From: a virus
Direction: 5' to 3' (one strand)
IMG/VR virus record: IMGVR_UViG_3300037487_000581
Location: 1-64,000 of that record
DNA length: 64,000 bases
Positions 1 to 24,680 of this stretch are shown here, one piece after another. The number at the start of each line of letters is the position of its first letter. The first letter of the stretch is position 1. Under the pieces are notes generated by a model. The model was not told the origin of the DNA. It ran no database searches and saw only the letters and a list, made by a program, of their open reading frames with translations. The position numbers and the translations under genes were made by a program.

Positions 1-50
<50 letters not shown>

Positions 51-51
51 C

Positions 52-85
52 AACATAACGTCATAACTAATTATATAGTTATGTT
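52..85. repeat. AT-rich inverted repeat
   Basis: Two nested dyads: AACATAAC (52-59) with GTTATGTT (78-85), and CATAACTA (62-69) with TAGTTATG (76-83). They lie between the TGGC repeat and the terminator of the next gene. Role unknown. Confidence 0.6.
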
Positions 86-95
86 AGGGTAAATA

Positions 96-121
96 AAAAG
101 CCGGGCAATTGCCCGGCTTTT
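96..121 (-). terminator. Rho-independent terminator, probably bidirectional
   Basis: A perfect palindrome GCCGGGCAATTGCCCGGC (100-117) is flanked by AAAA on the left and TTTT on the right, so it can end transcription from either side. It begins just past the stop of the leftward gene at 125-592. Confidence 0.85.
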
Positions 122-124
122 ATG

Positions 125-592
125 TTAGGCGCTTACGGGCATAAGCCAGCCCATGCGGTAACGAATATGCGCCGCTGCAACGGTGCCGCTACAACCCGTT
201 GCGCTTTGTACCGCTTGCGCTAATGCTGCGCTTGGGGCTGGTGCAGCGGCAACAATGGCGGCCCATGCTTGTGCGTTAAAACCTTGCTTGGGTACCTTGC
301 CAATTGCAGCGGCATTAACAGCAAGGCTACCGGCGGGCAGCTTGCCCAGTGTGGCATTACCTACCTTGTGCGCCAATGCCGTTGCGCCTTGTGCCGCTAA
401 ACCACTAGCTTGCATTACCGCCAACCTTGCGGCAGGCGTTGCCACTAACGGGGTGGCCGTAACATTAGCCACGGCTTGCTGTACTAAAGCCGTTAACCCA
501 TTGGGTAACGGTGCGGCAGTGTTAGCCGTTACATTGTTTGCGGGCGCATTGTTTGCGGGTTTTACTGCTTGCTTGCTTTTTGCTTGTGCCAT
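125..592 (-). CDS. Alanine-rich protein of unknown function
   Basis: About 155 residues starting MAQAKSKQ. A longer upstream extension exists, but the start at 592 is chosen because it has the phage-style leader AATAGGG-TAAACAAA-ATG, close to the leader of the gene at 11554-11781. Roughly a third of residues are alanine, the rest mainly Val, Leu, Asn, Pro and Gly, with few charges after the basic N-terminus (KSKQAVK). No signal peptide or clear membrane span. A strong terminator follows the stop. The rightward reading of the same DNA is also open but has no ribosome site. No family recognised. Confidence 0.6.
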   Translation of the reverse strand: MAQAKSKQAVKPANNAPANNVTANTAAPLPNGLTALVQQAVANVTATPLVATPAARLAVMQASGLAAQGATALAHKVGNATLGKLPAGSLAVNAAAIGKVPKQGFNAQAWAAIVAAAPAPSAALAQAVQSATGCSGTVAAAHIRYRMGWLMPVSA

Positions 593-599
593 TTTGTTT

Positions 600-628
600 A
601 CCCTATTAAGTAGGCGGCCAATTGCCGC
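600..628 (-). promoter_or_regulatory. Intergenic control module (dyad plus TAATAGGG)
   Basis: The dyad GCGGC-CAATT-GCCGC (614-628) precedes TAATAGGG and the start codon at 592, the same layout seen ahead of nine other leftward genes. The TAGGG part acts as ribosome site; the dyad could be an operator or an RNA hairpin. Confidence 0.5.
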
Positions 629-668
629 ACCCAAACTATAGCAACAAAAAACCCGCACGGCACAATAT

Positions 669-688
669 GCAAATAAATATTTATTTGC
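669..688. repeat. Perfect 20-base AT palindrome
   Basis: GCAAATAAATATTTATTTGC equals its own reverse complement. It lies about 80 bases upstream of the gene at 125-592, in a 293-base stretch (593-885) without genes. Possible protein-binding site. The rest of that stretch holds only the control module and the repeat cluster at 788-874. Confidence 0.7.
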
Positions 689-787
689 TTGCAATTGACC
701 GGCGTTTATGGTATTTGCGTGGGCATAGTGCAAACGTACTATTGCCAAAGACTAGCGGTTTATGTTATACGCGCACATGGGCAGGCG

Positions 788-855
788 TCAACCGATCTTT
801 GGAATCAACCGATCTGGTGATCTGTATAATCCGTATAATCAATTTCTGTATAATC
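788..855. repeat. Iteron-like cluster 1
   Basis: Contains TCAACCGATCT twice (788-798, 805-815) and three copies of (T/C)GTATAATC (823-831, 832-840, 847-855). The same two motif families recur on the other side of the small gene at 886-1182, in the cluster at 1314-1642. Confidence 0.75.
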
Positions 856-856
856 A

Positions 857-874
857 CCGGACACGAGGTCCGGA
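857..874 (-). terminator. Hairpin after the gene at 886-1182
   Basis: CCGGAC-ACGAGG-TCCGG-type stem-loop about 12 bases past the stop of the leftward gene. No good U tract follows, so termination is uncertain. Confidence 0.4.
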
Positions 875-885
875 TGTATAAGGGA

Positions 886-1182
886 TTAGAACCGGAAGTT
901 ATCTGCCATCGGTTCTAATGTCTTTTCAAACTCACTCTGTTCCTTTTGTCTCCAACCAATGACTCCGTCTGGAACCAAGAACCACTGATCATTGATCAAC
1001 GCATATCCATAGCCGTTGGGCAAATTTACATAAGGTGTACGTGATGGACAAGAATGACCGCAATCCCAATTGCCGAGTGCTCCATAAGGATTCAACATCA
1101 AATTTCCTGCCTTTTCTTTGTAGACTGTCAACTCTACATTGAAATCCTTGTTCACCTTGGTCAGCAATTCTTTGTAATCCAT
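886..1182 (-). CDS. Small protein of unknown function
   Basis: 98 residues beginning MDYKELLTKV. The start at 1182 has a good AGGAG ribosome site; an in-frame extension upstream does not. The protein is soluble and mixed in composition, with Cys at GNWDCGHSC that could bind metal or be incidental, and a C-terminal part rich in aromatic and charged residues. It is flanked on both sides by the same iteron-like repeats, so it sits inside the repeat-rich control region. No family recognised. Confidence 0.7.
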   Translation of the reverse strand: MDYKELLTKVNKDFNVELTVYKEKAGNLMLNPYGALGNWDCGHSCPSRTPYVNLPNGYGYALINDQWFLVPDGVIGWRQKEQSEFEKTLEPMADNFRF

Positions 1183-1190
1183 TTCAGTTC

Positions 1191-1240
1191 TCCTAAGGGT
1201 TGGCCGTAATAAGTAAACGGCAGGCACACAATAACCCGCA
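1191..1240 (-). promoter_or_regulatory. Intergenic control module
   Basis: GCCGT (1203-1207) and ACGGC (1217-1221) form a dyad with a nine-base spacer, followed on the leftward strand by CCAACCCTTAGGAG and the start at 1182. The outer part, CACACAATAACCCGC, matches the loop-side sequence of other modules. Confidence 0.5.
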
Positions 1241-1313
1241 TATTGTTCAATAACATTGTTTTTATTTATGGTAAATCGTTGGATCTTATGATATTTTCTA
1301 ACGGATCAATAAG

Positions 1314-1642
1314 ATCAACCGATCGTTAGAATTCGTATAATCAATTTCTGTATAATCGAGTGAGCGCTAGAATTCGTATAATCAATAGATCTCTTTACTC
1401 GTATAATCGAGTGAGCGTTAGATCATGGGAGCTCATTTAACGAGTTTCTGGCTAGATCATGGGAGCTCAATTAACGAGAACTTTAGACTCTTTGCTCGTA
1501 TAATCTCTAGATCCAATCGAGTTGACTCCCACCCATAGGAGATCCAAATTCAGAATAAACTTCAATCAAAATTGAACTTTTCGTACCCCTAGACACGACA
1601 TAAACTCATTTCTATTCATAAGGATCATTCTCACGTATAATC
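1314..1642. repeat. Iteron-like cluster 2
   Basis: Six copies of (C/T)GTATAATC at 1334, 1349, 1375, 1400, 1497 and 1634, plus ATCAACCGATCG at 1314. A longer unit, GTATAATCGAGTGAGCG, occurs at 1350-1366 and 1401-1417. On the other strand the core reads GATTATAC(A/G), loosely like a DnaA box (one or more mismatches). No gene lies in 1183-1985; this stretch is a candidate replication origin or transcription control region. Confidence 0.7.
1421..1478. repeat. 24-base direct repeat, two copies
   Basis: GATCATGGGAGCTCATTTAA plus CGAG at 1421-1444 recurs at 1455-1478 with one change (AATT for ATTT). Each copy carries a GAGCTC palindrome and one GATC. The copies are ten bases apart inside iteron cluster 2. 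Confidence 0.85.
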
Positions 1643-1850
1643 CTTAAATACCATACTAATTTACTGGGTGACCTTAACGACGAGTTGCTTAAGAATTGAA
1701 CAACTTTAAAACCCCGCACCTTATAAATCATACACTTGACCATAGTGGTACTAACAAATTGTAAATGCAGCAGCATTTTTTAAAAACGAGTTTGCCAGCC
1801 ACCAATATTGTAACTCTTTAATTACATAATGCTCCCACCCTATATACACA
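1568..1850. repeat. Duplicated intergenic element, copy A
   Basis: Resembles 34057-34283 in the same orientation. Shared blocks include CCCCTAGACA near 1587 followed by TAAACTC, a GCAGCA block near 1767, AATATTGTAACT (1804-1815) followed by TTTAATTA, and CCCTATAT (1838-1845). It lies between iteron cluster 2 and the rightward gene at 1986. It holds no gene and may be a promoter region or origin. Confidence 0.7.
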
Positions 1851-1985
1851 CCTCACCTCACCACTGCCATGTTACAGAGCAAACTAATATGTATTGTAAA
1901 GACCACCAATACCATGTAAAATTATTACCATCTGGAGTGGCGATAACGAAGTTATTACCACATTCATCGACCCATAGGAGCTATT

Positions 1986-3119
1986 ATGTATCAATCAAAT
2001 GAACGTAAAATCGAAATAGTCTTAAACATTGATCAAAATGAAGTTCATCTGCAGAAGTTAAGTGATCCCAAATACAGATACAGTCAATTGTTTAAGCGTC
2101 AAGGTTTTATCAAATATTACGCTGCCGGTGTCGTTATACAGTCTGCAAATGACTTCCGACGAGCTCTGAATCGTGACGAAACAAATCCGATGTTTGCCAC
2201 CTCGCTTGTTCTTTGTTTATCTGTTGATAGCAAACTCCAGCCAAATAACGAGTTCACATTTAAGACTTACCGTCGCGTTTATATTCCATTCGGTGTCGAA
2301 GTGCAATCAATCAAAGTTGATGACCTGATGTATAAGTCATTCCCACAGACGACAGATTTTTCATTGATTAAAATTGAGAGTTGTACCATCGATCTTAATT
2401 TGAAACAGGCTAAAATCAAAGGGACAGTTGGGCTTGAATTTACACTTGAAGAAACAGAATATGACAAGTTTCAATTCTTTAGAAACAAGATTGAACCTCT
2501 GTATGCCCACATACAGAAAGTTATGATGCGCCCTGAGCTTGATCTTTATGAGAACGATTTTATTGCGGCTGAAGTACTGAAAATGGCAACAACTGTTCTT
2601 AAGAACCTTGACCTTCTCCATTCTAACAGTTTCAATAGTAATCGTATAGTTCGCAAACAATTGATTAATGCACTGATTGACCAAGATCGACCGCTTGTTA
2701 TGCCCGATGGTTCAGTTGATTTGTTTGAGCGCGATGAAGATGACCAACCTACTAAGAAACAACCATTCGCAATGGGTCTCTATGAATACAAAGGCGCATA
2801 CTTTAAGGATAAACTCGAATGCGACAGTTTTATGAGAAATGCCGAATATTGCGGTCAAACAGCAGACAGTATCGTTGCCAATCAGAAACTCGCTAATCGT
2901 TACGAATACATGATGGAATTTCTGACTGAGAGCCAACGCATCCATGAAATAACCGAAGAAGAGATCAATCACCCTGAGTTTGTCATGTATGCCATGACGG
3001 AAGAAGAGCGCGGTGAATACGAGTCGCTAAACAATGATACCGACAAAGATAAAGCCGCACGACTGGAACTAGCTCGCGCGGCGAAGTTAAGATGGAAGAT
3101 GGCTCAAGGACGAATGTAA
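1986..3119 (+). CDS. Rightward 377-residue protein of unknown function
   Basis: One of only two convincing rightward genes. The start at 1986 has AGGAG seven bases upstream, and a long repeat-rich leader precedes it. The protein is soluble, with a basic N-terminal half rich in beta-type sequence (KIEIVLNIDQNEVHL; TYRRVYIPFGVEVQSIKVDD), a charged middle, and an acidic helical C-terminal third ending in a basic patch (AARLELARAAKLRWKMAQ). It is at the opposite end of the early region from the helicase genes and next to the origin-like repeats, so an initiator or partition-like role is conceivable but not shown. No family recognised. Confidence 0.8.
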   Translation: MYQSNERKIEIVLNIDQNEVHLQKLSDPKYRYSQLFKRQGFIKYYAAGVVIQSANDFRRALNRDETNPMFATSLVLCLSVDSKLQPNNEFTFKTYRRVYIPFGVEVQSIKVDDLMYKSFPQTTDFSLIKIESCTIDLNLKQAKIKGTVGLEFTLEETEYDKFQFFRNKIEPLYAHIQKVMMRPELDLYENDFIAAEVLKMATTVLKNLDLLHSNSFNSNRIVRKQLINALIDQDRPLVMPDGSVDLFERDEDDQPTKKQPFAMGLYEYKGAYFKDKLECDSFMRNAEYCGQTADSIVANQKLANRYEYMMEFLTESQRIHEITEEEINHPEFVMYAMTEEERGEYESLNNDTDKDKAARLELARAAKLRWKMAQGRM

Positions 3120-3123
3120 GTCG

Positions 3124-3435
3124 TTAAGGAACATCCTGCATAAGATCCATGTACCGCTCCCGCGTTTCCTGTTTGATTTTAAGAATCTTCTCAGGGCACA
3201 CGGGGATTTCGTACCATTTGGAATCGAGCGGCGCTGAATAAATCCATTTGACATTAATGGAATCGAAATAAGAAGCAGGTGCATATGCCCAACGGTTAGC
3301 CGTAGCGCGCCGGAAGTAAACGATTACCAAGATCTCTTCCGGGATACCAGGATTTGCGGCAACGAACTCAGCACGATGCTTGTTACGAAGATAGCGTTGG
3401 ACGAGTTCGAATGAACTATTATTGGATGCTTGCAT
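3124..3435 (-). CDS. Small protein of unknown function
   Basis: 103 residues, MQASNNSSFELV start with AAGGAG ribosome site. Converges with the gene at 1986-3119, stops four bases apart. Contains VIVYFRRATANRWAYAPASYFD, a beta-rich core, and a helical C-terminus ending YMDLMQDVP. No membrane span. No family recognised. Confidence 0.75.
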   Translation of the reverse strand: MQASNNSSFELVQRYLRNKHRAEFVAANPGIPEEILVIVYFRRATANRWAYAPASYFDSINVKWIYSAPLDSKWYEIPVCPEKILKIKQETRERYMDLMQDVP

Positions 3436-3445
3436 GATTTGCTCC

Positions 3446-3649
3446 TTAGAAAGGCACTTCGTTGTTATCGGTCATTTCTGCTTTACCATTGCAGATAAAC
3501 ACGAGATCTTCATCCGACTCGTACATATCAAAAGCGTCGTTACCAACGATGATCGGGCCGTTTTCCATGCCACCGATGTCTTCCCAATCGGCTTCCACGT
3601 GCTCATGTTTGTAACCCATTGCCAACAAATATTCGTGTGCGTGTGTCAT
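3446..3649 (-). CDS. Small acidic protein of unknown function
   Basis: 67 residues beginning MTHAHEYLLAMG; start at 3649 set by GGAG in a CCAATAGGAGAAATGAA leader. Strongly acidic in its middle (NDAFDMYESDEDL). First gene after a control module; followed after ten bases by the gene at 3124-3435. Acidic DNA-mimic or anti-host roles are possible for such early proteins but there is no direct evidence. Confidence 0.7.
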   Translation of the reverse strand: MTHAHEYLLAMGYKHEHVEADWEDIGGMENGPIIVGNDAFDMYESDEDLVFICNGKAEMTDNNEVPF

Positions 3650-3654
3650 TTCAT

Positions 3655-3717
3655 TTCTCCTATTGGTTATGCCGTAGTAATATGTAACGGCAACCAAATA
3701 ATAACCCAAGGGTTATT
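3655..3717 (-). promoter_or_regulatory. Intergenic control module with terminator hairpin
   Basis: The dyad GCCGT (3671-3675)/ACGGC (3687-3691) precedes the AATAGGAG leader of the gene at 3446-3649. An adjoining hairpin AATAACCC-AA-GGGTTATT (3700-3717) overlaps the stop codon of the HNH gene and could end its transcription. Confidence 0.55.
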
Positions 3718-4315
3718 CACTGTGCGGGTTATTTGCCCAAGTAACTCCGTTTCTAATTCGCGATATAGTAGATCTGTTGACCTTAAATTTCTCAGCCAAC
3801 ATTCTCATACAACCATAATGATCTTTTGTATTTCTTATTTCGTTCACATCTTCCTCAGTTAATTTTGACAAATTGTCTTTCTCAGGATTGACTTTTGTCC
3901 AATGTTTTTCGCCTCTTGCCACTTTTTCTGGATTTTTCCTTGACCAATGTTCATCTCCGCTAGACATATTTTCTGGATTCAATCTTGAATGATGTTCGTC
4001 ACCCCTTTTAATCTTACCGTTACGGATCGCATCTGCAATGTTGTCAGCCTGTGTACCGTATGCGAGATTCGATAAGACGTTGTTTTCACGATTATCGTCA
4101 AGATGTCTTACTAATTGTCCTTCTGGACAGGGTCCGATAAACAATCTTGCTACAACACGATGGATACTAAACTCTTTCTTTACGAAATCATTTTTAACTC
4201 TTATACACGGGTATCCATTGTGTAAGAAGATTCGTACATAATCGTCTCCTTTCTTAACAAGACCTGTGTCAGAAAACTGGTAATCAGGGAATTCCTTAAG
4301 TGAGCGCCATTCCAT
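3713..4315 (-). CDS. HNH homing endonuclease (NUMOD4-type)
   Basis: 200 residues with GGAG ribosome site. Order of parts: an N-terminal NUMOD4-like segment (WRSLKEFPDYQFSDTGLV), an HNH core with the typical IHRVVARLF, VRHLDDNRENN and LSNLAYGTQADN motifs (about residues 50-95), three imitation repeats of the form RGDEHxxRxNPE (about 100-145), and a C-terminal helix-turn-helix (LAEKFKVNRSTISRIRNG). This is the standard plan of free-standing phage homing endonucleases: cleavage by HNH, target recognition by the repeats and HTH. It is probably selfish and not needed for replication. It stands alone between two divergently arranged genes, with no intron evident nearby. Confidence 0.92.
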   Translation of the reverse strand: MEWRSLKEFPDYQFSDTGLVKKGDDYVRIFLHNGYPCIRVKNDFVKKEFSIHRVVARLFIGPCPEGQLVRHLDDNRENNVLSNLAYGTQADNIADAIRNGKIKRGDEHHSRLNPENMSSGDEHWSRKNPEKVARGEKHWTKVNPEKDNLSKLTEEDVNEIRNTKDHYGCMRMLAEKFKVNRSTISRIRNGVTWANNPHSE

Positions 4316-4335
4316 TTGTTTCTCCGTTGAGTTTA

Positions 4336-4355
4336 TGCTACAGTGTTAATTGTAG
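4336..4355. promoter_or_regulatory. Inverted repeat between divergent genes
   Basis: GCTACA (about 4336) and TGTAGC (to about 4355) flank an AT-rich centre in the 99-base gap between the leftward HNH gene and the rightward nuclease gene. The position suits a shared operator or promoter. Confidence 0.35.
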
Positions 4356-4414
4356 CACGTTTACTCTTAACCCGCATGGGCGTCGTTTGCAAAGCAATAT
4401 GTTAAAGGATCAAC

Positions 4415-5008
4415 ATGGCAAGTAAACCAGAACTCTTAATCTACCAATCTCTTAGGGGAATGTTTTCTAAACATTTCCCTAAAGGAAGATGGATCTTACA
4501 GAGAATAGAGACATCGACTGGAGTCGGTATTCCTGACATCTATTTCTCATTGCTCGTCAATGAGCAACACATGAACATGTGGATAGAGACAAAGACTGTT
4601 GATTATGTGGTGTCAAACGAACAATTAAATTGGGCTTATCAACACACATTGACAGGTGGTTTGACCTATATTGTGACTCGTATAAACACGGCGCAAATAC
4701 CCGCCAAAAGCGGTATAAACAACCCCGCTACGACGGCCTACAGTACCCCAAATTTAACATCTAACATACTTGCCCACCCTACCCTATACCCACAATTGCA
4801 CGAGCTTTGCAATGGGCCATATACGCAATGTGAAAACATAACCAATGAACGTAAAAAAGGACAGGAGACGTTAGTCTTTCTGTCCTTCGATGATCGGATG
4901 CGGGAGTGTTCCTCCCTTGGTGTCTACATACGCCGCTTTAATCCTCCGATGCTAGAGGTGGGACATTGGGCACGACATATGGCAGATTGTCCTTCTCAAT
5001 CACTGTAA
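4415..5008 (+). CDS. VRR-NUC-like PD-(D/E)XK nuclease
   Basis: 197 residues; AAAGGAT precedes the start. The first 100 residues match the VRR-NUC layout: TGVGIPDIYF (the G-x-PD motif), MWIETKT (the ExK catalytic pair), then NEQLNWAYQHTLTGGLTYIVTR, which is the usual Q-containing helix and final strand. Proteins of this fold act as structure-specific nucleases, including Holliday-junction resolvases. The stretch after about residue 100 (Thr/Pro/Asn-rich) does not belong to the fold. The 3' end overlaps the convergent gene at 4938-5129 by 71 bases. A second rightward gene on the edge of the repeat-rich region. Confidence 0.75.
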   Translation: MASKPELLIYQSLRGMFSKHFPKGRWILQRIETSTGVGIPDIYFSLLVNEQHMNMWIETKTVDYVVSNEQLNWAYQHTLTGGLTYIVTRINTAQIPAKSGINNPATTAYSTPNLTSNILAHPTLYPQLHELCNGPYTQCENITNERKKGQETLVFLSFDDRMRECSSLGVYIRRFNPPMLEVGHWARHMADCPSQSL

Positions 5009-5129
5009 ATGCGAATTTGTGATTTACACGTAACCACCTCTTCATTGCGATGTTGTATAAGATACATTCACGTATAACCCACACAATACCGACAACCCAC
5101 GGTATAACAAATATGATTTCTGGTTTCAT
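4938..5129 (-). CDS. Small single-span membrane protein
   Basis: 63 residues beginning MKPEIIFVIPWVVGIVWVI, a clear N-terminal transmembrane helix, followed by a basic stretch (MKRWLRVNHK). AGGAG is suitably spaced before 5129. The last 71 bases overlap the rightward nuclease gene tail to tail, which is unusual here, so the annotated C-terminus could be readthrough of a once shorter gene. Confidence 0.55.
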   Translation of the reverse strand: MKPEIIFVIPWVVGIVWVIRECILYNIAMKRWLRVNHKFAFTVIEKDNLPYVVPNVPPLASED

Positions 5130-5398
5130 GTGGTTTCTCCTAGTGCGCGGATAGCGTCTGCGCAATCTGAAAGTTCTTCGTTAACTACCGAAGCACGATG
5201 CGGACCTTTAAAACTCTCGCATGTTTTTGCACAACGCTCAATTGTTGATTTCTTTGCTGCTTTCCAAACGTCCCAACAGATTTGTTTGAAGCTGAGTAAT
5301 GTGTATCGCCCCTCTTCTGGATGCCATTCATCGTGGATCGTATAACCCCTTACGCGATACCAATGTTCAAAATCTGCATCTGGTAAATGTGGTTTCAT
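5126..5398 (-). CDS. Small protein with CADAIRALGE C-terminus
   Basis: 90 residues, GGAAGGGA ribosome site. The C-terminal motif CADAIRALGE recurs in the proteins at 7294-7611 and 7611-8090, so these three share a terminal module common in phage early proteins of unknown function. The middle contains WKAAKKSTIERCAKTCESF. Start of the GC-richer block. ATGA overlap with the next gene. Confidence 0.75.
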   Translation of the reverse strand: MKPHLPDADFEHWYRVRGYTIHDEWHPEEGRYTLLSFKQICWDVWKAAKKSTIERCAKTCESFKGPHRASVVNEELSDCADAIRALGETT

Positions 5399-5650: not shown

Positions 5651-5694
5651 GAGTATTTCCTTTTCAGTTGTGCCGCGTTTTGTCGTGTCACGGA

Positions 5695-5735
5695 TAACAC
5701 GTCGCTCAACCCGGACGCTGCGCCGGCAAGCTCTT
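5695..5735 (+). other. Decayed integron attC-like site
   Basis: TAACACGTCGCTCAAC (5695-5710) is identical to the left half of the complete attC at 6737-6804, and GCGCCGG-CAAGCTC that follows aligns with its GCGCCGG-TTAGCTA. The right core GTTAGGC is replaced by TTCAACC and the variable hairpin is shortened. It lies in the 112-base gap before the gene at 5763-6074. Confidence 0.6.
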
Positions 5736-5762
5736 CAACCTTCATCGCTTCATCCACGTTCA

Positions 5763-6256: not shown

Positions 6257-6493
6257 TCAGTCCTCCTCCATCGCATCTCGCGCTCGGCTTAAACGCAGAT
6301 CAAAATGCAATGCATCAAGCAACCGCGTCTGGTCTTCTTTGATGCCCGCCTGCTTGAACTGATCCATCAAATTGGATAGCGCCACTGCATCAGTAAAGTT
6401 ATCCATAGGAAGAAACACTGACGGACAGCCTTGCAGTTTGAACTCTGCTATGCCCGATGAAGTTGCTACGCTTCCTGTCCAGTTGAAATTCAT
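6257..6493 (-). CDS. Small protein of unknown function
   Basis: 78 residues from MNFNWTGSVATSSG; AAGGA site before 6493. Mixed beta N-terminus and helical, charged C-terminus (HFDLRLSRARDAMEED). Lies immediately left of the isolated GTTAGGC core at 6548-6554. Confidence 0.7.
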   Translation of the reverse strand: MNFNWTGSVATSSGIAEFKLQGCPSVFLPMDNFTDAVALSNLMDQFKQAGIKEDQTRLLDALHFDLRLSRARDAMEED

Positions 6494-6541: not shown

Positions 6542-6715
6542 CTATGCGTTAGGCGGCGTAAGGTTCGGAAGTTTTGGGTTTTTGTTCCACGCCAATGAAA
6601 AAGATTTGTACCCGAAATTCACCCAAAGCAAGTGCCTATGGCTATCTTGTATTTTGCTATTTCTGTACCCAATGCCGTAGGCAAACTGATTACTCATTGA
6701 TGTATATTTTTGCAT
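6542..6715 (-). CDS. 57-residue protein inside attC cassette
   Basis: Begins MQKYTSMSNQFAYGIGYRNS with AAGGAG six bases upstream. It fills nearly all of the 250-base segment bounded by GTTAGGC at 6548 and GCCTAAC at 6737, and its last codons (PPNA, stop) run through the GTTAGGC core, as cassette genes often do. It reads opposite to the canonical direction of the attC site. A rightward frame (6595-6792) entering attC is also open but has no ribosome site. Function unknown. Confidence 0.6.
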   Translation of the reverse strand: MQKYTSMSNQFAYGIGYRNSKIQDSHRHLLWVNFGYKSFSLAWNKNPKLPNLTPPNA

Positions 6716-6736
6716 TCATATCTCCTTGTGTTCTCC

Positions 6737-6804
6737 GCCTAACACGTCGCTCAACTCGGGAGCAGGCGGCTTTATCGCCTGCGCCGGTTAGCTAGGCGTT
6801 AGGC
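6737..6804 (+). other. Integron attC recombination site
   Basis: All parts of a canonical attC are present. R'' GCCTAAC (6737-6743) pairs with R' GTTAGGC (6798-6804). L'' GCTCAAC (6749-6755) pairs with L' GTTAGC (6787-6792), leaving the diagnostic extrahelical C in L''. GCAGGCG/CGCCTGC (6762-6768/6776-6782) forms the variable terminal hairpin. The extra base in L'' sets the orientation to the plus strand. attC sites are recombined by integron integrases; none is encoded here. The stop codon of the gene at 6799-7128 lies inside R'. Confidence 0.88.
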
Positions 6805-7145: not shown

Positions 7146-7235
7146 TCAGCCTAACTCTCGTTTACAGTTGCCTTCGCTCGGCATCGTGTGAATATCAGCA
7201 TCAGACCCGCAGAACGGGCAAGGTTTCAGTTCCAT
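7146..7235 (-). CDS. Truncated Lar-like zinc-ribbon peptide
   Basis: 29 residues: MELKPCPFCGSDADIH then a short tail. LKPCPFCGS is the hallmark N-terminus of the Lar (restriction alleviation) zinc-ribbon family, whose members normally run to about 60 residues with a second Cys pair. Here the frame ends at CKRELG, the last codons being GAGTTAGGC, an integron-type core site, so the gene looks cut at a recombination point. Strong AGGAGG site. It probably keeps only one metal-binding knuckle and may be inactive. Confidence 0.65.
   Translation of the reverse strand: MELKPCPFCGSDADIHTMPSEGNCKRELG
7149..7155. other. Isolated attC-type core GCCTAAC
   Basis: Single core heptamer inside the 3' end of the truncated Lar-like gene. 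No L boxes or partner core can be found to its right, so it is a remnant or a chance match. With GTTAGGC at 6798 it bounds the DUF551-like gene. Confidence 0.4.
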
Positions 7236-7297
7236 TTCCTTTCCTCCTGGGTTGTCATGCCCAACAAACCAATCAAGCACCATTGGTCTAGTGTCAT
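7226..7297 (-). CDS. Possible 23-residue leader peptide
   Basis: MTLDQWCLIGLL start sits in an ATGA overlap with the stop of the gene at 7294-7611, with AGGAG seven bases before it, and the stop overlaps the start of the Lar-like peptide. An alternative frame from 7304 reads straight into the Lar-like sequence. Confidence 0.35.
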   Translation of the reverse strand: MTLDQWCLIGLLGMTTQEERKWN

Positions 7298-7611
7298 TTC
7301 TCATCTCCTAATGCGCGGATAGCTTCTGCGTACTGTTGTCCGTCTACAATGTCTAAGCAGACGCTTGCACATCTCTCCCGCTCTGCTGCCAGCGCCAGCA
7401 AGACCAGATCTTCACATTTTACCCATGTTCTATCCGTCGCTTCCTGTTCAGCTCGTTGATAGGTTTCGTTCAGTTCTTTGCGACGTTCTTCCTGATCCCG
7501 CAAGTTTTGCTGCCGCAGCATTCTATGAGAATCAATTAGTTGCTCAACAGGTATAGTCACACCCAGTTCCCTTGCATAATCTTCAAGCATTTTCATTTCC
7601 CATACACTCAT
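7294..7611 (-). CDS. Coiled-coil protein with AIRALGD C-terminus
   Basis: 105 residues. Residues 25-60 (RQQNLRDQEERRKELNETYQ) predict a coiled coil; the C-terminal YAEAIRALGDE matches the terminal module of the proteins at 5126-5398 and 7611-8090. GGGGAA site; the TAATG overlap with the upstream gene indicates coupling. Function unknown. Confidence 0.75.
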   Translation of the reverse strand: MSVWEMKMLEDYARELGVTIPVEQLIDSHRMLRQQNLRDQEERRKELNETYQRAEQEATDRTWVKCEDLVLLALAAERERCASVCLDIVDGQQYAEAIRALGDEK

Positions 7612-8090
7612 TATGATTCCCCTAGTGCGCGGATAGCGTCACAGCATTCCCATGCTGTTTGCCGAAAACCCCTGATATGTATCTGCTCGCACGCCTTCAG
7701 GCAACGCTCCCGTTCCTTAGCCAGCACAGCACGCAGGGCGGTGTCATCTACTGGCTGGGCGAGGGCTTCATCAGCAAACTCAAAAGCTTCACGCAAGTGA
7801 GCATAGTCAATACAGTCGCTACACGGTGGAGCTATGTGGCATGAGCAGTTGCTGTCTGGAGGTCTATCAATAGCTTCAACCATAGTTTCAAGCGCATCCC
7901 GCAGCACTTTCTCCCGTGCTTGGGAGGCTGCGAGGTTAATTTGCAGATCGCGCACGTCATTGCACACGTAGTCTTCCAGCTTTCGAACCTCCGCTCGCAG
8001 CGTCTCAATTTTGTCGGCTGCTTCTCGCATGACACGCGAATATCCAGAGGTCGGGTTATAGCTCCGTAGCTTTTCAATAAGGTCAGTCAT
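7611..8090 (-). CDS. Coiled-coil early protein with DAIRALGES C-terminus
   Basis: 159 residues, GGAGGGAAG before the start. The N-terminus MTDLIEKLRSYNP then AADKIETLRAEVRKLED and later REKVLRDALETMVEAID resemble phage Ea22-type accessory proteins built from helical modules. A Cys-rich insert (CSCHIAPPCSDC) could bind metal. C-terminal CCDAIRALGES is shared with two neighbours, suggesting module shuffling. GC-rich block. Confidence 0.75.
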   Translation of the reverse strand: MTDLIEKLRSYNPTSGYSRVMREAADKIETLRAEVRKLEDYVCNDVRDLQINLAASQAREKVLRDALETMVEAIDRPPDSNCSCHIAPPCSDCIDYAHLREAFEFADEALAQPVDDTALRAVLAKERERCLKACEQIHIRGFRQTAWECCDAIRALGES

Positions 8091-17894: not shown

Positions 17895-18622
17895 TAAAAC
17901 TTCTCCTTACCGTGAGAACAATGTTCTTCAGTTATCGGACAAAATCTGCAATTCCCACCACGCCCGTTCTTTTGCATATCACCAGGATTCTCAGGCCACA
18001 CGTCAAAGCGGTAGCAACGGTCGATATCTTCGAGCGTTTCTTTAAACGGTTCAAACAGCTTATCCAAATCCTTGCGGTAGAACCAATCACTAACTTGGTC
18101 GCTATAGTTCAAGAAGTGGAATGTCACCTTCACCTTGTTGACCTCAGGGTGCGCCGTCATAACCACCCAAGCGTAAAGCTGAAGTTGTTTGGTGATCTTG
18201 ACCTTACCTGTCTTCCAATCGGCAATTTCACACGAATCACCGTCAATCTTCATCCAGTCAATATAACCTGTATACCAACGGTCAGGGTCTTCGTCGGAAC
18301 AACGAACCAGTTTATTTTCTTTATACCAACCTTCAAATCTGACAGGAAAATGAGCTAACCACTTAAACGAATACCCGGCTTCACAAATCCCATTCTTCGC
18401 TTTGTAGATATCGAGCACACGTTTCCACCGCGCCAATTCAGGATCCCAAACGTCATCACGAATATACTTTTCAATCAACTCGTGCAAACGCGCACCTTCG
18501 TTACCCGCCTTGGATTCTTCGCTCTTTATCAACCCTTTGGCACGGACAAGTTCGTATTGCTTGGGGCAAGTCATAAGACCTAGGCTGGAAAATGACCAGC
18601 GGTAATGCGGAACTTCGTTCAT
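17894..18622 (-). CDS. Cas4/RecB-like PD-(D/E)XK exonuclease
   Basis: 242 residues; start MNEVPHYRWSFSSL at 18622 overlaps the methyltransferase stop (ATGA) with GGAG upstream. PD-(D/E)XK motifs: GARLHELIE (helix with His), YTGYIDW (catalytic Asp), CEIADWKTG (D-x-K), KQLQLYAW (Q-x-x-x-Y). One Cys near the N-terminus (MTCPKQYEL) and three near the C-terminus (CRFCPITEEHC) fit the four-Cys iron-sulphur site of Cas4 and AddB. Phage members act as 5'-3' exonucleases in recombination or end processing. Last gene of the block polymerase-glycosyltransferase-methyltransferase-nuclease. Confidence 0.88.
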   Translation of the reverse strand: MNEVPHYRWSFSSLGLMTCPKQYELVRAKGLIKSEESKAGNEGARLHELIEKYIRDDVWDPELARWKRVLDIYKAKNGICEAGYSFKWLAHFPVRFEGWYKENKLVRCSDEDPDRWYTGYIDWMKIDGDSCEIADWKTGKVKITKQLQLYAWVVMTAHPEVNKVKVTFHFLNYSDQVSDWFYRKDLDKLFEPFKETLEDIDRCYRFDVWPENPGDMQKNGRGGNCRFCPITEEHCSHGKEKF

Positions 18623-19227
18623 TTGCGTCTCCATGCGCCAATTGTTTGCCAATGACCGCCTTCAAGTTTCGGCTCTTTGACACACTCCCAACCGTCAAAC
18701 AACTTGACCAATTCTCGCGCCTTCTCAATATACTCCTTGTTCGTGCGATGAATCTCAAGAGTCACTTGTTTCACAAAGTTAGGAAGCGGTTTGGTCAAGA
18801 ATGTGTATTCAGCTCCCTCGCAATCAATCTTAAGGACTTCAGGTCTGTGTGTCTTAAGAATGAAGTCAAATGAAACAGTCGGGACTTTTATTTCTTTACG
18901 ACCTCGTGTCGGGCGCATGGTATGCGAACCTTTGTTGATACCGTCCTCATTGACGTAGAATGAAATCTCACCTTCGGAATCAGACACTGCCAAATGATGA
19001 GGGGTCACTTTGTAATCAAATACATTATGAACAAGAAGCTCGTAATTCTCTGGCTCAGGTTCATAGGAGAAAACTTGCTTCGCGTCCTTCTGAGCAAAGT
19101 AGACCGACGCCGCACCAAAACAAGCGCCGATGTCCATTACGACCTTGTCCTTAACGTCCATCCAACCGTAAGTACGAGCGATCTCTTTGACAATATAGTC
19201 GTCGTACGTTCCTTCGCGTGTCTTCAT
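18619..19227 (-). CDS. FkbM-family methyltransferase
   Basis: 202 residues. SAM-binding motif VVMDIGACFGAAS, acidic strand end FSYEPEPENYELL, and the FkbM signature LKIDCEGAEYTFL are clear. FkbM enzymes usually O-methylate sugars or polyketides. Four-base overlaps join it to the glycosyltransferase upstream and the nuclease downstream, so a likely substrate is the sugar placed by that enzyme. It may modify DNA-linked sugar or a host glycan; the position behind DNA polymerase favours DNA, as inference only. Confidence 0.9.
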   Translation of the reverse strand: MKTREGTYDDYIVKEIARTYGWMDVKDKVVMDIGACFGAASVYFAQKDAKQVFSYEPEPENYELLVHNVFDYKVTPHHLAVSDSEGEISFYVNEDGINKGSHTMRPTRGRKEIKVPTVSFDFILKTHRPEVLKIDCEGAEYTFLTKPLPNFVKQVTLEIHRTNKEYIEKARELVKLFDGWECVKEPKLEGGHWQTIGAWRRK

Positions 19228-19997
19228 TTTGCAATTCCTCGTTGATAAGACTTCTTCCAGCCGATACGTACATCAGTTCTAACGCCACCACCCCATGAAC
19301 CTTTCGTCTCCTTCTCAACGGGTGTCACAAGACCGGGGTATTTCGCTGCCAATGCGAATGCAGCTTCCTTCTGTGTTTCCAACGTGCGGTATTCCTTACA
19401 ACCACCATCCATGTTAGAACCCGGTTGGTTGTTCGTAAACGTATTGATCTCAACATTCTTGAACCCGTTAGTCAACAGGGTCAACGTAACGTCGAAGTCT
19501 TCCATGACCTTCATTGCGGTAAAGTCACAACCTGCTTCAATGAACGATGGTTTGTGAATACCGAACACGCGCATGATACGAGTGTTCTCGCTCCACTCAC
19601 CTTCCTTACGATTGTTACCCTCGCGTGATGAAATACCGACCATTGCATAACCACTGTCGATATGATCTTCAATCAAGTTCACCATCGCACGGAGATCTTC
19701 GGGTGTACAAGGTGTCAAATACAACGGATTGTCGGTTCGCTTACCGCGACGGGCAAAACTTAGGTCGTCGTCCATCATGATAACTTTATCACCCGGATGG
19801 TAATCCATAATAAATTGACGCGTGTGACCAATACCTCGTTTGACATTATCTGGTTCGATGATGACTTGAAAACCTCGTTTGAAAAGATATTCAGCTTCAG
19901 TATCTCTACAAACGAGAGCGAAGTCAATCCCTGCTTCTCGTAAGGCTTTCGCAGTCTCTTGGCGATCAGTTCTTCCTAGGGTCGGAATGTAAATCAT
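19224..19997 (-). CDS. Glycosyltransferase, GT-A fold, TAGT-like
   Basis: 257 residues. MIYIPTLGR opens a nucleotide-sugar binding fold; HTRQFIMDYHPGDKVIMMDDD gives the D-x-D metal site (about residue 76). Later parts are MVGISSR, an acidic KVMEDFDVTLTLL and NMDGGCKEYRT. This order is like the TET-associated glycosyltransferases that decorate hydroxymethylated bases in phage DNA. No TET/JBP oxygenase is seen here, so hydroxymethyl groups would have to arise at the nucleotide level. It overlaps the DNA polymerase stop by four bases. A host-surface glycan target remains possible. Confidence 0.8.
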   Translation of the reverse strand: MIYIPTLGRTDRQETAKALREAGIDFALVCRDTEAEYLFKRGFQVIIEPDNVKRGIGHTRQFIMDYHPGDKVIMMDDDLSFARRGKRTDNPLYLTPCTPEDLRAMVNLIEDHIDSGYAMVGISSREGNNRKEGEWSENTRIMRVFGIHKPSFIEAGCDFTAMKVMEDFDVTLTLLTNGFKNVEINTFTNNQPGSNMDGGCKEYRTLETQKEAAFALAAKYPGLVTPVEKETKGSWGGGVRTDVRIGWKKSYQRGIAK

Positions 19998-23190: not shown

Positions 23191-23718
23191 TCATCTATCC
23201 TGATCTACGTAACCGTCTGACAACGGTTCTTCACCGCCCCAAAAGTTCTTCAACATCGGACTGATAGCACCCTCATTGGTAATGTGATGATCTAACGCAG
23301 CCTTCATTGAATACTGACGCATCATTTCTTCACGCAAATGTTCAGGAACACCTGTCATAGCGTCTTCACGCATTTTGTCCATTTTAAATGACAATTGCTC
23401 TTGATAGTCATCGGGGTATTTCTGTTTATCGATCAGAGAATCATCAGTAGGGTGTTTGACACTTTCCGCAGGACGAACCCCTTCCATATTAATATGGATA
23501 GCTTTTTCTATATTGTATTCAAGTTCAATCAGCTTCTCAATAAAATGAATGGATTTTTCAAGGTCCTCTTTACCGTTCTTAAGATGATATCGCTCTAAAT
23601 ATTTCGTTGCACATCCTACAAAGTAACCGCGACCATATAGACGGTACATTCTATCCCAATGTTGTTCGCCATCTTTTGGATAGTGAGTACCGCCCACTTG
23701 TTTATCATTTGCGCTCAT
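23191..23718 (-). CDS. DUF3310 (nucleotide-kinase-like) protein
   Basis: 175 residues from MSANDKQVGGTHY in an ATGA overlap with the TS-like gene. The first 70 residues carry DUF3310 marks: VGGTHYPKDGEQHWDRMY, GYFVGCATKYLERYHLKNG, EDLEKSIHFIEKLI. The rest is helical and acidic. The family is annotated as nucleotide kinase-like in phages but activity is unproven. Coupling to the TS-like enzyme supports a nucleotide role. Confidence 0.8.
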   Translation of the reverse strand: MSANDKQVGGTHYPKDGEQHWDRMYRLYGRGYFVGCATKYLERYHLKNGKEDLEKSIHFIEKLIELEYNIEKAIHINMEGVRPAESVKHPTDDSLIDKQKYPDDYQEQLSFKMDKMREDAMTGVPEHLREEMMRQYSMKAALDHHITNEGAISPMLKNFWGGEEPLSDGYVDQDR

Positions 23719-24680
23719 TTGGATTCTCTCTTTTCCAACCATTGTTGACAAGCTAACCGCCAGTCTGTTGCCTGTATTGCTAGCGTATAGTATAGCCCGT
23801 TTTTATTTTCCTTGTGTGCCCGGTGCGCCATCGCCATTGGCTTTGCGACGTAGTTAAAGAATGGATCCATGTACTTCACACTCCGCCACGGTTCTTCCAT
23901 GAATGTGTATAAGTCACTCATCCAGCTTTCTTTATTGCTTACCAATGGGAACGGTGCGACCTGTCCGTTCTTATACGGGTCATCTACAGTCAGCGGTAAA
24001 TCGTGACACTTGTTCCAATGGGGAGTGAGTTCTGTGTACACGTGCATACAGTTGCTGATCTGCCAATAACGCCCAACCTTAACACCGATCATTGATGCAA
24101 CATATTCTTGAATCACGCTCATGTGAACTGCATTTGCGCCCAATGCGCCAAGAATAAAATCATTACTACGATTGTAAACAGTCCAGTCGAGATAACCATC
24201 GCGAATACGCGGGACGATAGTGAGGTTGCAAGCCTTGTCTAAAGTTTCTTTACCAAGGTCGTCGGTGTCCCATATCTGCAAGACGGCTTGACGGTCGTCT
24301 GGATTTCTTCTGAGAAGTGTAATGACTTCGTCGATTTGGTCACGTCCAAAATGCGATCTGAGTCGGTGACCGTACGCGGCGTTGAAACGATCCCCATCGT
24401 CGCTATACTTCCGCATTTGGCTATTGTATTCATCAAGGAATTCAACATCATCTCTTCCTGCGAGCATCCAAAGACTCTCGAATAAATGAAAGAAGGGGTT
24501 GGCATCTCGTTCAGCAGAGAATAAAACTCTTTCGTCAGGTCTGTCGTACTGGACGGCGGTTGGAGACATGATTTCGAGTGTTGGTCCATTTCTACTATCC
24601 CTTTTCACACCGTTGTTTTTCAAATGAAACAATCCCAATGGGAAAATATCATTTACATTTCTACCGCGAATACTCAGCAT
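23715..24680 (-). CDS. Thymidylate-synthase-family enzyme (dTMP or hmdUMP)
   Basis: 321 residues; GGAGATATTTA before the start. TS fold markers: NPFFHLFESLWMLAGRDD, FNAAYGHRLRSHFG, DRQAVLQIWD, DKACNLTIVP (catalytic Cys), NRSNDFILGALGANAVH (binding loop with Asn for dUMP) and WQISNCMHVY. It should act on dUMP with folate, giving dTMP or 5-hydroxymethyl-dUMP; sequence alone cannot separate the two. Neighbours include a DNA base-hypermodification protein, and dUTPase and dCMP deaminase supply dUMP. The usual Pro before the catalytic Cys is Ala here. Confidence 0.85.
   Translation of the reverse strand: MLSIRGRNVNDIFPLGLFHLKNNGVKRDSRNGPTLEIMSPTAVQYDRPDERVLFSAERDANPFFHLFESLWMLAGRDDVEFLDEYNSQMRKYSDDGDRFNAAYGHRLRSHFGRDQIDEVITLLRRNPDDRQAVLQIWDTDDLGKETLDKACNLTIVPRIRDGYLDWTVYNRSNDFILGALGANAVHMSVIQEYVASMIGVKVGRYWQISNCMHVYTELTPHWNKCHDLPLTVDDPYKNGQVAPFPLVSNKESWMSDLYTFMEEPWRSVKYMDPFFNYVAKPMAMAHRAHKENKNGLYYTLAIQATDWRLACQQWLEKRESK

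Follow-up and report, generated by a model that had tools for sequence, protein, structure and literature searches.

How does an integron attC site come to lie among the genes of a phage that has no integrase of its own, and to what kind of cassette does it belong? The site is found in a window of 64,000 nucleotides (by which we mean the whole stretch of DNA that was analysed), taken from a viral record of 68,992 bp that is classed as linear. The record is that of a tailed phage, with genes for portal, capsid, DNA polymerase, thymidylate synthase and helicase, and in its capsid protein it shares 69% identity with the Caulobacter phages RW and RLK. A sequence-only reading of the window had described a complete attC site within a phage genome that encodes no integrase, and had proposed that a host integron was the probable source of the cassette, or that a host integrase acts on the phage. 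The portal, capsid and DNA polymerase genes confirm the phage setting. The lack of an integrase also holds, the tyrosine-integrase domain PF00589 not being found in the record, which may be incomplete.

Two further features of the window are noted here for orientation. At the start of the record (window 1-50) there is a run of TGGC repeats, possibly an artefact of the assembly end. On the minus strand, 18619-19997 and 23715-24680 encode an FkbM-type methyltransferase, a TET-associated glycosyltransferase and a thymidylate synthase, a combination that may indicate hypermodification of DNA bases.

The attC site and its fold

The attC site occupies positions 6737-6804 of the plus strand. In order from the 5' end, there is an R'' core GCCTAAC (6737-6743), a spacer ACGTC, an L'' box GCT[C]AAC[T]CGG (6749-6759) with an extrahelical C at 6752 and T at 6756, a terminal hairpin (6762-6782) with a stem of 7 bp (GCAGGCG/CGCCTGC) and a loop of 7 nt, an L' box CCGGTTAGC (6784-6792), a spacer TAGGC, and an R' core G↓TTAGGC (6798-6804), the arrow marking the crossover point expected from cassette differences in other phages. 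The cores and spacers are read from the sequence, the hairpin from the fold, and the L boxes from both. All the elements of an attC are therefore present: cores of the form RYYYAAC...GTTRRRY, paired L boxes, an extrahelical base and a hairpin. When folded as single-stranded DNA, both strands form the attC hairpin, with z-scores of -4.2 for the plus strand and -4.0 for the minus strand relative to dinucleotide shuffles, none of 200 shuffles being as good.

A covariance model, referred to here as R1, was derived from 23 bacterial attC sites, with the window excluded. On the plus strand the site reaches 52.8 bits (E 4e-11) with R1, compared with 18.1 bits for the minus strand, and the second-best R1 match in the window has 9.3 bits. 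As a control, R1 recovered the known aadA1 attC of plasmid R100 on the strand of the gene (46.6 bits, E 4e-9). The sequence-only reading had named a covariance search and the folding of the bottom strand as the means of checking the site, a search with no match counting against it. The search is strongly positive, the minus strand folds with a z-score of about -4, and the description of a complete attC with correctly paired elements is upheld by the sequence, the fold and the model alike. We conclude that the attC at 6737-6804 is genuine. The predicted recombining ('bottom') strand would be the minus strand, which is the coding strand of the phage genes.

Across all 68,992 bp of the record, neither sequence patterns nor R1 revealed a second intact attC, and R1 gave no other significant match; an Rfam scan of the window likewise gave no match. 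R1 found no attC in 20 records with related capsids (some of them fragments), nor in the searched parts of Caulobacter phage RW and MW202545. It also misses the attC sites of TJE1, P12002L and the first 50 kb of H101, and it therefore covers one attC type only.

The putative cassette and its neighbours

A second GTTAGGC core, without a surrounding attC hairpin, is found at 6548-6554 on the plus strand, and is the putative left border of a cassette. This 7-mer occurs 10 times in the window, against 4.8 expected by chance, and the border is therefore weak when considered alone. From the two cores, a putative mobile cassette of 250 bp would extend from 6549 to 6798 (no strand being assigned to it), on the assumption that crossover is at G↓TT of both cores (6548 and 6798). 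The putative cassette gene is an ORF of 57 aa on the minus strand (6542-6715), with AAGGAG upstream and its stop just beyond the left core; it has no family match, and no protein relatives were found. The upstream phage gene (6799-7122, minus strand) has its TAA stop at 6799-6801, within R', and the next phage gene downstream is at 6257-6493, also on the minus strand. No protein relatives were found for either of these flanking genes, and nucleotide queries with the window, the attC site and the cassette found nothing in phages or plasmids.

The inner ORF and every other gene in the region lie on the minus strand and the attC on the plus strand, meaning that the attC points against the genes. 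In a classic cassette the gene is on the attC strand and has the attC at its 3' end, which is not the arrangement at 6737-6804. We define here a reverse-polarity phage cassette as one with antisense genes and a TAA stop in R', and both features are found at this locus. The left GTTAGGC, the 57-aa minus-strand ORF and the antisense neighbours had gone unmentioned in the sequence-only reading.

About 1 kb from the attC there is a probable attC relic (5691-5740, plus strand), which consists of TAACACGTCGCTCAAC at 5695, then GCGCCGG and an altered L', and which lacks R'. The 16 nt of TAACACGTCGCTCAAC are an exact copy of the 5' part of the attC, the longest such match in 60 windows generated from a Markov model being 13. 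The relic gives an R1 match of 9.3 bits and now lies within an ORF. Judged from its sequence, it is most simply read as a decayed attC in the same orientation, and its distance of 1 kb from the attC suggests an array that has now decayed. With one intact site and one relic, the locus is not a CALIN, which has two or more close attC sites and no integrase. Neither is it a complete integron, there being no intI and attI beside an array in this record.

The accessory region around the cassette also encodes three small proteins with a common C-terminal motif C..AIRALG (5126-5398, 7294-7611 and 7611-8090, all on the minus strand), which are probably paralogues. A small ORF close to the cassette (7146-7304, minus strand) has a sub-threshold match to the restriction-alleviation protein Lar.

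Polarity, exchange and integrases in other phages

In order to compare gene strand and attC strand, one DNA pattern was run on both viral contigs and bacterial genomes, and two more attC patterns were run on the viral contigs. The patterns were chosen from the attC type of the window, and the survey is therefore biased towards that type. Each attC was given the strand indicated by the additional base of its L'' box. Gene calling relied on a script with a simple composition and ribosome-binding-site model, rather than on Prodigal, and the calls match the GenBank strand in TJE1, small ORFs excepted.

The pattern search found the attC type of the window in Beta- and Gammaproteobacteria. In these bacterial genomes the gene before the attC is on the same strand in 23 cases and antisense in none, and the gene after it is on the same strand in 24 and antisense in two. 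The two exceptions (L107 and L108) may be phage DNA, L107 agreeing with viral contig L087 in both length and attC, and L108 being a contig of 3.8 kb. The viral contigs show the opposite arrangement, with the gene before the attC antisense in 132 cases and on the same strand in 13, and the gene after it antisense in 147 and on the same strand in 9. Among the viral sites defined by R1, 200 have antisense genes on both sides, and only one has same-strand genes on both sides. The antisense layout is found in 57 of 58 attC-bearing viral contigs (strictly 57 of 59, L170 having been omitted as an ordinary integron), a count that exceeds the number of independent cases, because several of the contigs are near-identical copies. 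The complete circular phage MW202573 has five R1 matches on the minus strand, one of them weak, and the CDS in 1-4707 are all on the plus strand; the CDS strands are taken from the GenBank annotation and are independent of our gene calls. The exceptions are phage TJE1, which by eye has ordinary polarity, and the viral contigs L159 and L170, also of ordinary polarity, the latter with an intI. L159 and L170 are probably ordinary integrons.

These counts argue against the proposal that the cassette came from a host integron. The bacterial loci are same-strand, whereas the neighbours and the inner ORF in the window are antisense, as in nearly all of the viral contigs, and a phage-type cassette pool therefore fits better. 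The accompanying remark that such sites are seldom reported from lytic-type phages holds for the literature, but three strict patterns are already enough to find about 60 viral contigs that have them.

Read in the direction of the phage genes, the elements follow one another as gene - GCC-TAA↓C - hairpin - GTTAGGC - ribosome-binding site - gene. In 91 of 227 phage cases the stop TAA of the upstream gene falls precisely within the R' core, this being the offset of -5 that is also seen in the window. Gene starts in the viral contigs cluster 20-30 nt past the attC, or fall within a long hairpin. For comparison, bacterial cassettes of this attC type also often end in the core that transcription reaches first (5 of 23). 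The difference between bacterial and phage cassettes is which arm has the extra base, and the strand expected to recombine consequently differs. At any point of insertion, therefore, the gene upstream of such a cassette retains its stop codon, and the incoming gene arrives with a ribosome-binding site of its own.

Related viral contigs differ by whole cassettes, L150 for example being without one cassette of L137. L137/L138/L150, L169/L168, L129/L140 and L157/L171 have common DNA after R' and unrelated attC interiors, and L129/L152 have the attC and the preceding DNA in common, but not the DNA after R'. These comparisons place the crossover at R', the position indicated by most polymorphic pairs, all of which are other phages and not relatives of the window; the L158/L172 pairs are ambiguous as to its position. 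One clean pair, L129:4714-5182 and L144:4796-4891, which have only GCCTAACCC in common, puts the crossover in R'' or the spacer, and this difference is either top-strand recombination or a short-homology deletion. A functionally inverted attC, with crossover at R'', was first drawn from this comparison, and was dropped because most pairs point to R'. Some of the cassette differences could stem from homologous recombination between attC copies that resemble one another.

An integron integrase above the curated cut-off was found in four of the 28 viral records searched, namely G042, which is an ordinary integron, G034, G025 and G031. The last two are phages, as seen from their terminase, capsid, tape-measure and tail genes. 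Their IntI proteins are intact, and are 77% identical to each other and 53% identical to IntI1, with IntI4 as the nearest solved structure. In both, an attI-like stretch ending in GTTAGGC lies beside intI. The array lies in the classic orientation relative to intI; it is the cassette genes that are turned round, and the operon runs through the cassettes towards intI.

In G025 (IMG/VR 3300021586_000024; L186:1-2855 and L187:14283-16891) the attI-like site is at the very start of the contig and the reversed cassettes are at the other end, and a serine recombinase (Resolvase/Recombinase) adjoins intI. The contig starts exactly at the attI core, and variable junctions might have broken the assembly there. 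G031 (IMG/VR 3300042939_000785; L189:1072-6020) has intI, the attI-like site and at least four attC sites, with every gene on the strand opposite the attC sites and directed towards intI, and with a second tyrosine integrase just past intI. The low-GC phage contig G034 (IMG/VR 3300037246_003316; L190:2285-4941) has an intI split over two frames, which is an assembly error or a pseudogene, and weak attC sites on the strand opposite the genes, several of which end in TAAC at a core.

The cargo set comprises 121 cassette proteins, with a median length of about 92 aa in a wider set of 164. Most of the cassette proteins (L083-L174) have no Pfam family. Those with a family include N6/N4 and C5 DNA methylases, Dam, Mom and Lar, and also Acb3, a CBASS inhibitor. 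The family-assigned cargo of these cassettes appears rich in counter-defence functions.

Origin of the cassette and comparison with known systems

We consider it probable that the integron attC at 6737-6804 belongs to a reverse-polarity gene cassette of the phage type. In the minus sense the unit would consist of the attC, a ribosome-binding site, a small gene and a core, and the TAA of the upstream gene, in GCC-TAA↓C, would come directly before the crossover point. Because the record has no intI, the integron integrase would be supplied in trans, possibly by the host or by another (co-infecting) phage. After binding to the minus strand in its folded form, it would catalyse the crossover at G↓TT of R', and the 250-bp cassette would be inserted or excised between two genes of the accessory operon, neither of which would be broken. 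The excised form would join ...CTATGCG to TTAGGCGTCCGG. This would imply that the cassette in the window was inserted by an integrase, with the 57-aa ORF as its cargo. In favour of the reverse-polarity reading, we note the R1 score on the plus strand, the R100 control, the antisense genes and the TAA in the core, together with MW202573, the cassette differences at R', the intI and attI-like site of G025 and G031, and the relic in the window. Against it are the single intact site, the lack of an integrase in the record, the lack of a relative with the empty site, the bare 7-mer at the left border, the L129/L144 crossover at R'' and the ordinary polarity of TJE1.

Some of these observations suit other explanations. 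One intact and one degenerate site, in a record without an integrase, would also be expected of the fossil of a reverse-polarity array, whose leftover attC no longer recombines. The elements of the attC are however all intact and pair perfectly, and the ORF and ribosome-binding site adjoin it as they do in longer arrays, and we regard such a fossil as rather unlikely. An ordinary bacterial cassette, captured from a host integron and passively carried, would likewise agree with the missing integrase, and with the presence of the same attC type in Beta- and Gammaproteobacteria. It is nevertheless an improbable source, given that the genes oppose the attC, contrary to the bacterial loci found with the same pattern, and that the cassette region has no similarity to plasmid DNA.

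One might also suppose that the site is not a recombination site at all, but an attC-like hairpin kept for an effect on the operon mRNA, such as processing, termination or translation start. It does lie between genes of one operon, the ribosome-binding site is next in the sense strand, and some viral contigs have gene starts inside the hairpin. An RNA hairpin would however need neither the core boxes nor the extrahelical C, and these are conserved as in bacterial attC sites; moreover, the cassettes of related contigs differ at R', and an intI and attI-like site accompany such arrays in two phages. We find this explanation very improbable indeed.

The reverse-polarity reading can be extended to a more general proposal, for and against which we see the balance as even: that tailed phages of environmental bacteria own an integron system, in which reversed cassettes form one operon running towards the phage intI/attI and shuffle small counter-defence genes, and that phages without intI, such as the present one, use this common pool by means of an integrase acting in trans. 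If phages do own such integrons, the reversal means that the attC strand which recombines is the sense strand of a transcribed operon. In the reversed build, each gene stays intact and can be co-transcribed with any neighbour. Bacterial integrons are known gene stores, phage-defence genes included, and the data point to a separate phage counterpart of them. Surveys that do not compare the gene strand with the attC strand would score reversed cassettes as host cassettes. A testable question is thereby raised, namely whether phages exchange counter-defence genes by site-specific recombination.

The 'reverse integrons' of the Treponema type have the integrase gene turned round and ordinary cassettes. 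They resemble the phage integrons described here in that intI and the cassette genes read in one direction, and differ in that here the geometry of intI, attI and attC is classic and it is the cassette genes that are turned. The attC of the window is like those of class 1 and chromosomal integrons (aadA1 in R100) in its cores, L boxes, extra L'' base and hairpin, and R1 finds both. The difference is that aadA1 reads with its attC, whereas the neighbouring genes in the window all read against it.

Phages that carry attC sites and CALINs have already been published (Qi 2023, PMC9892861), with TJE1, P12002L, H101 and MW202573 as examples, and several phage attC sites were reported there to be usable by IntI1. 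These are like the window in having attC sites without an integrase in phages; TJE1 is of ordinary polarity and MW202573, by the present analysis, is reversed. No account of genes opposing the attC was found in that paper, and a description of reversed polarity, of the stop-in-core design or of phage integrons of that build was not found in the open-licence literature. The same paper describes host integrons captured by prophages, in Vibrio anguillarum p16 and Shewanella M16-3, which share with G025 and G031 a phage-carried intI, attI and attC. As there described, p16 and M16-3 are pieces of host integrons, whereas in G025 and G031 the cassette genes are reversed, and their IntI proteins are only 44-53% identical to those of named phages, prophages and plasmids.
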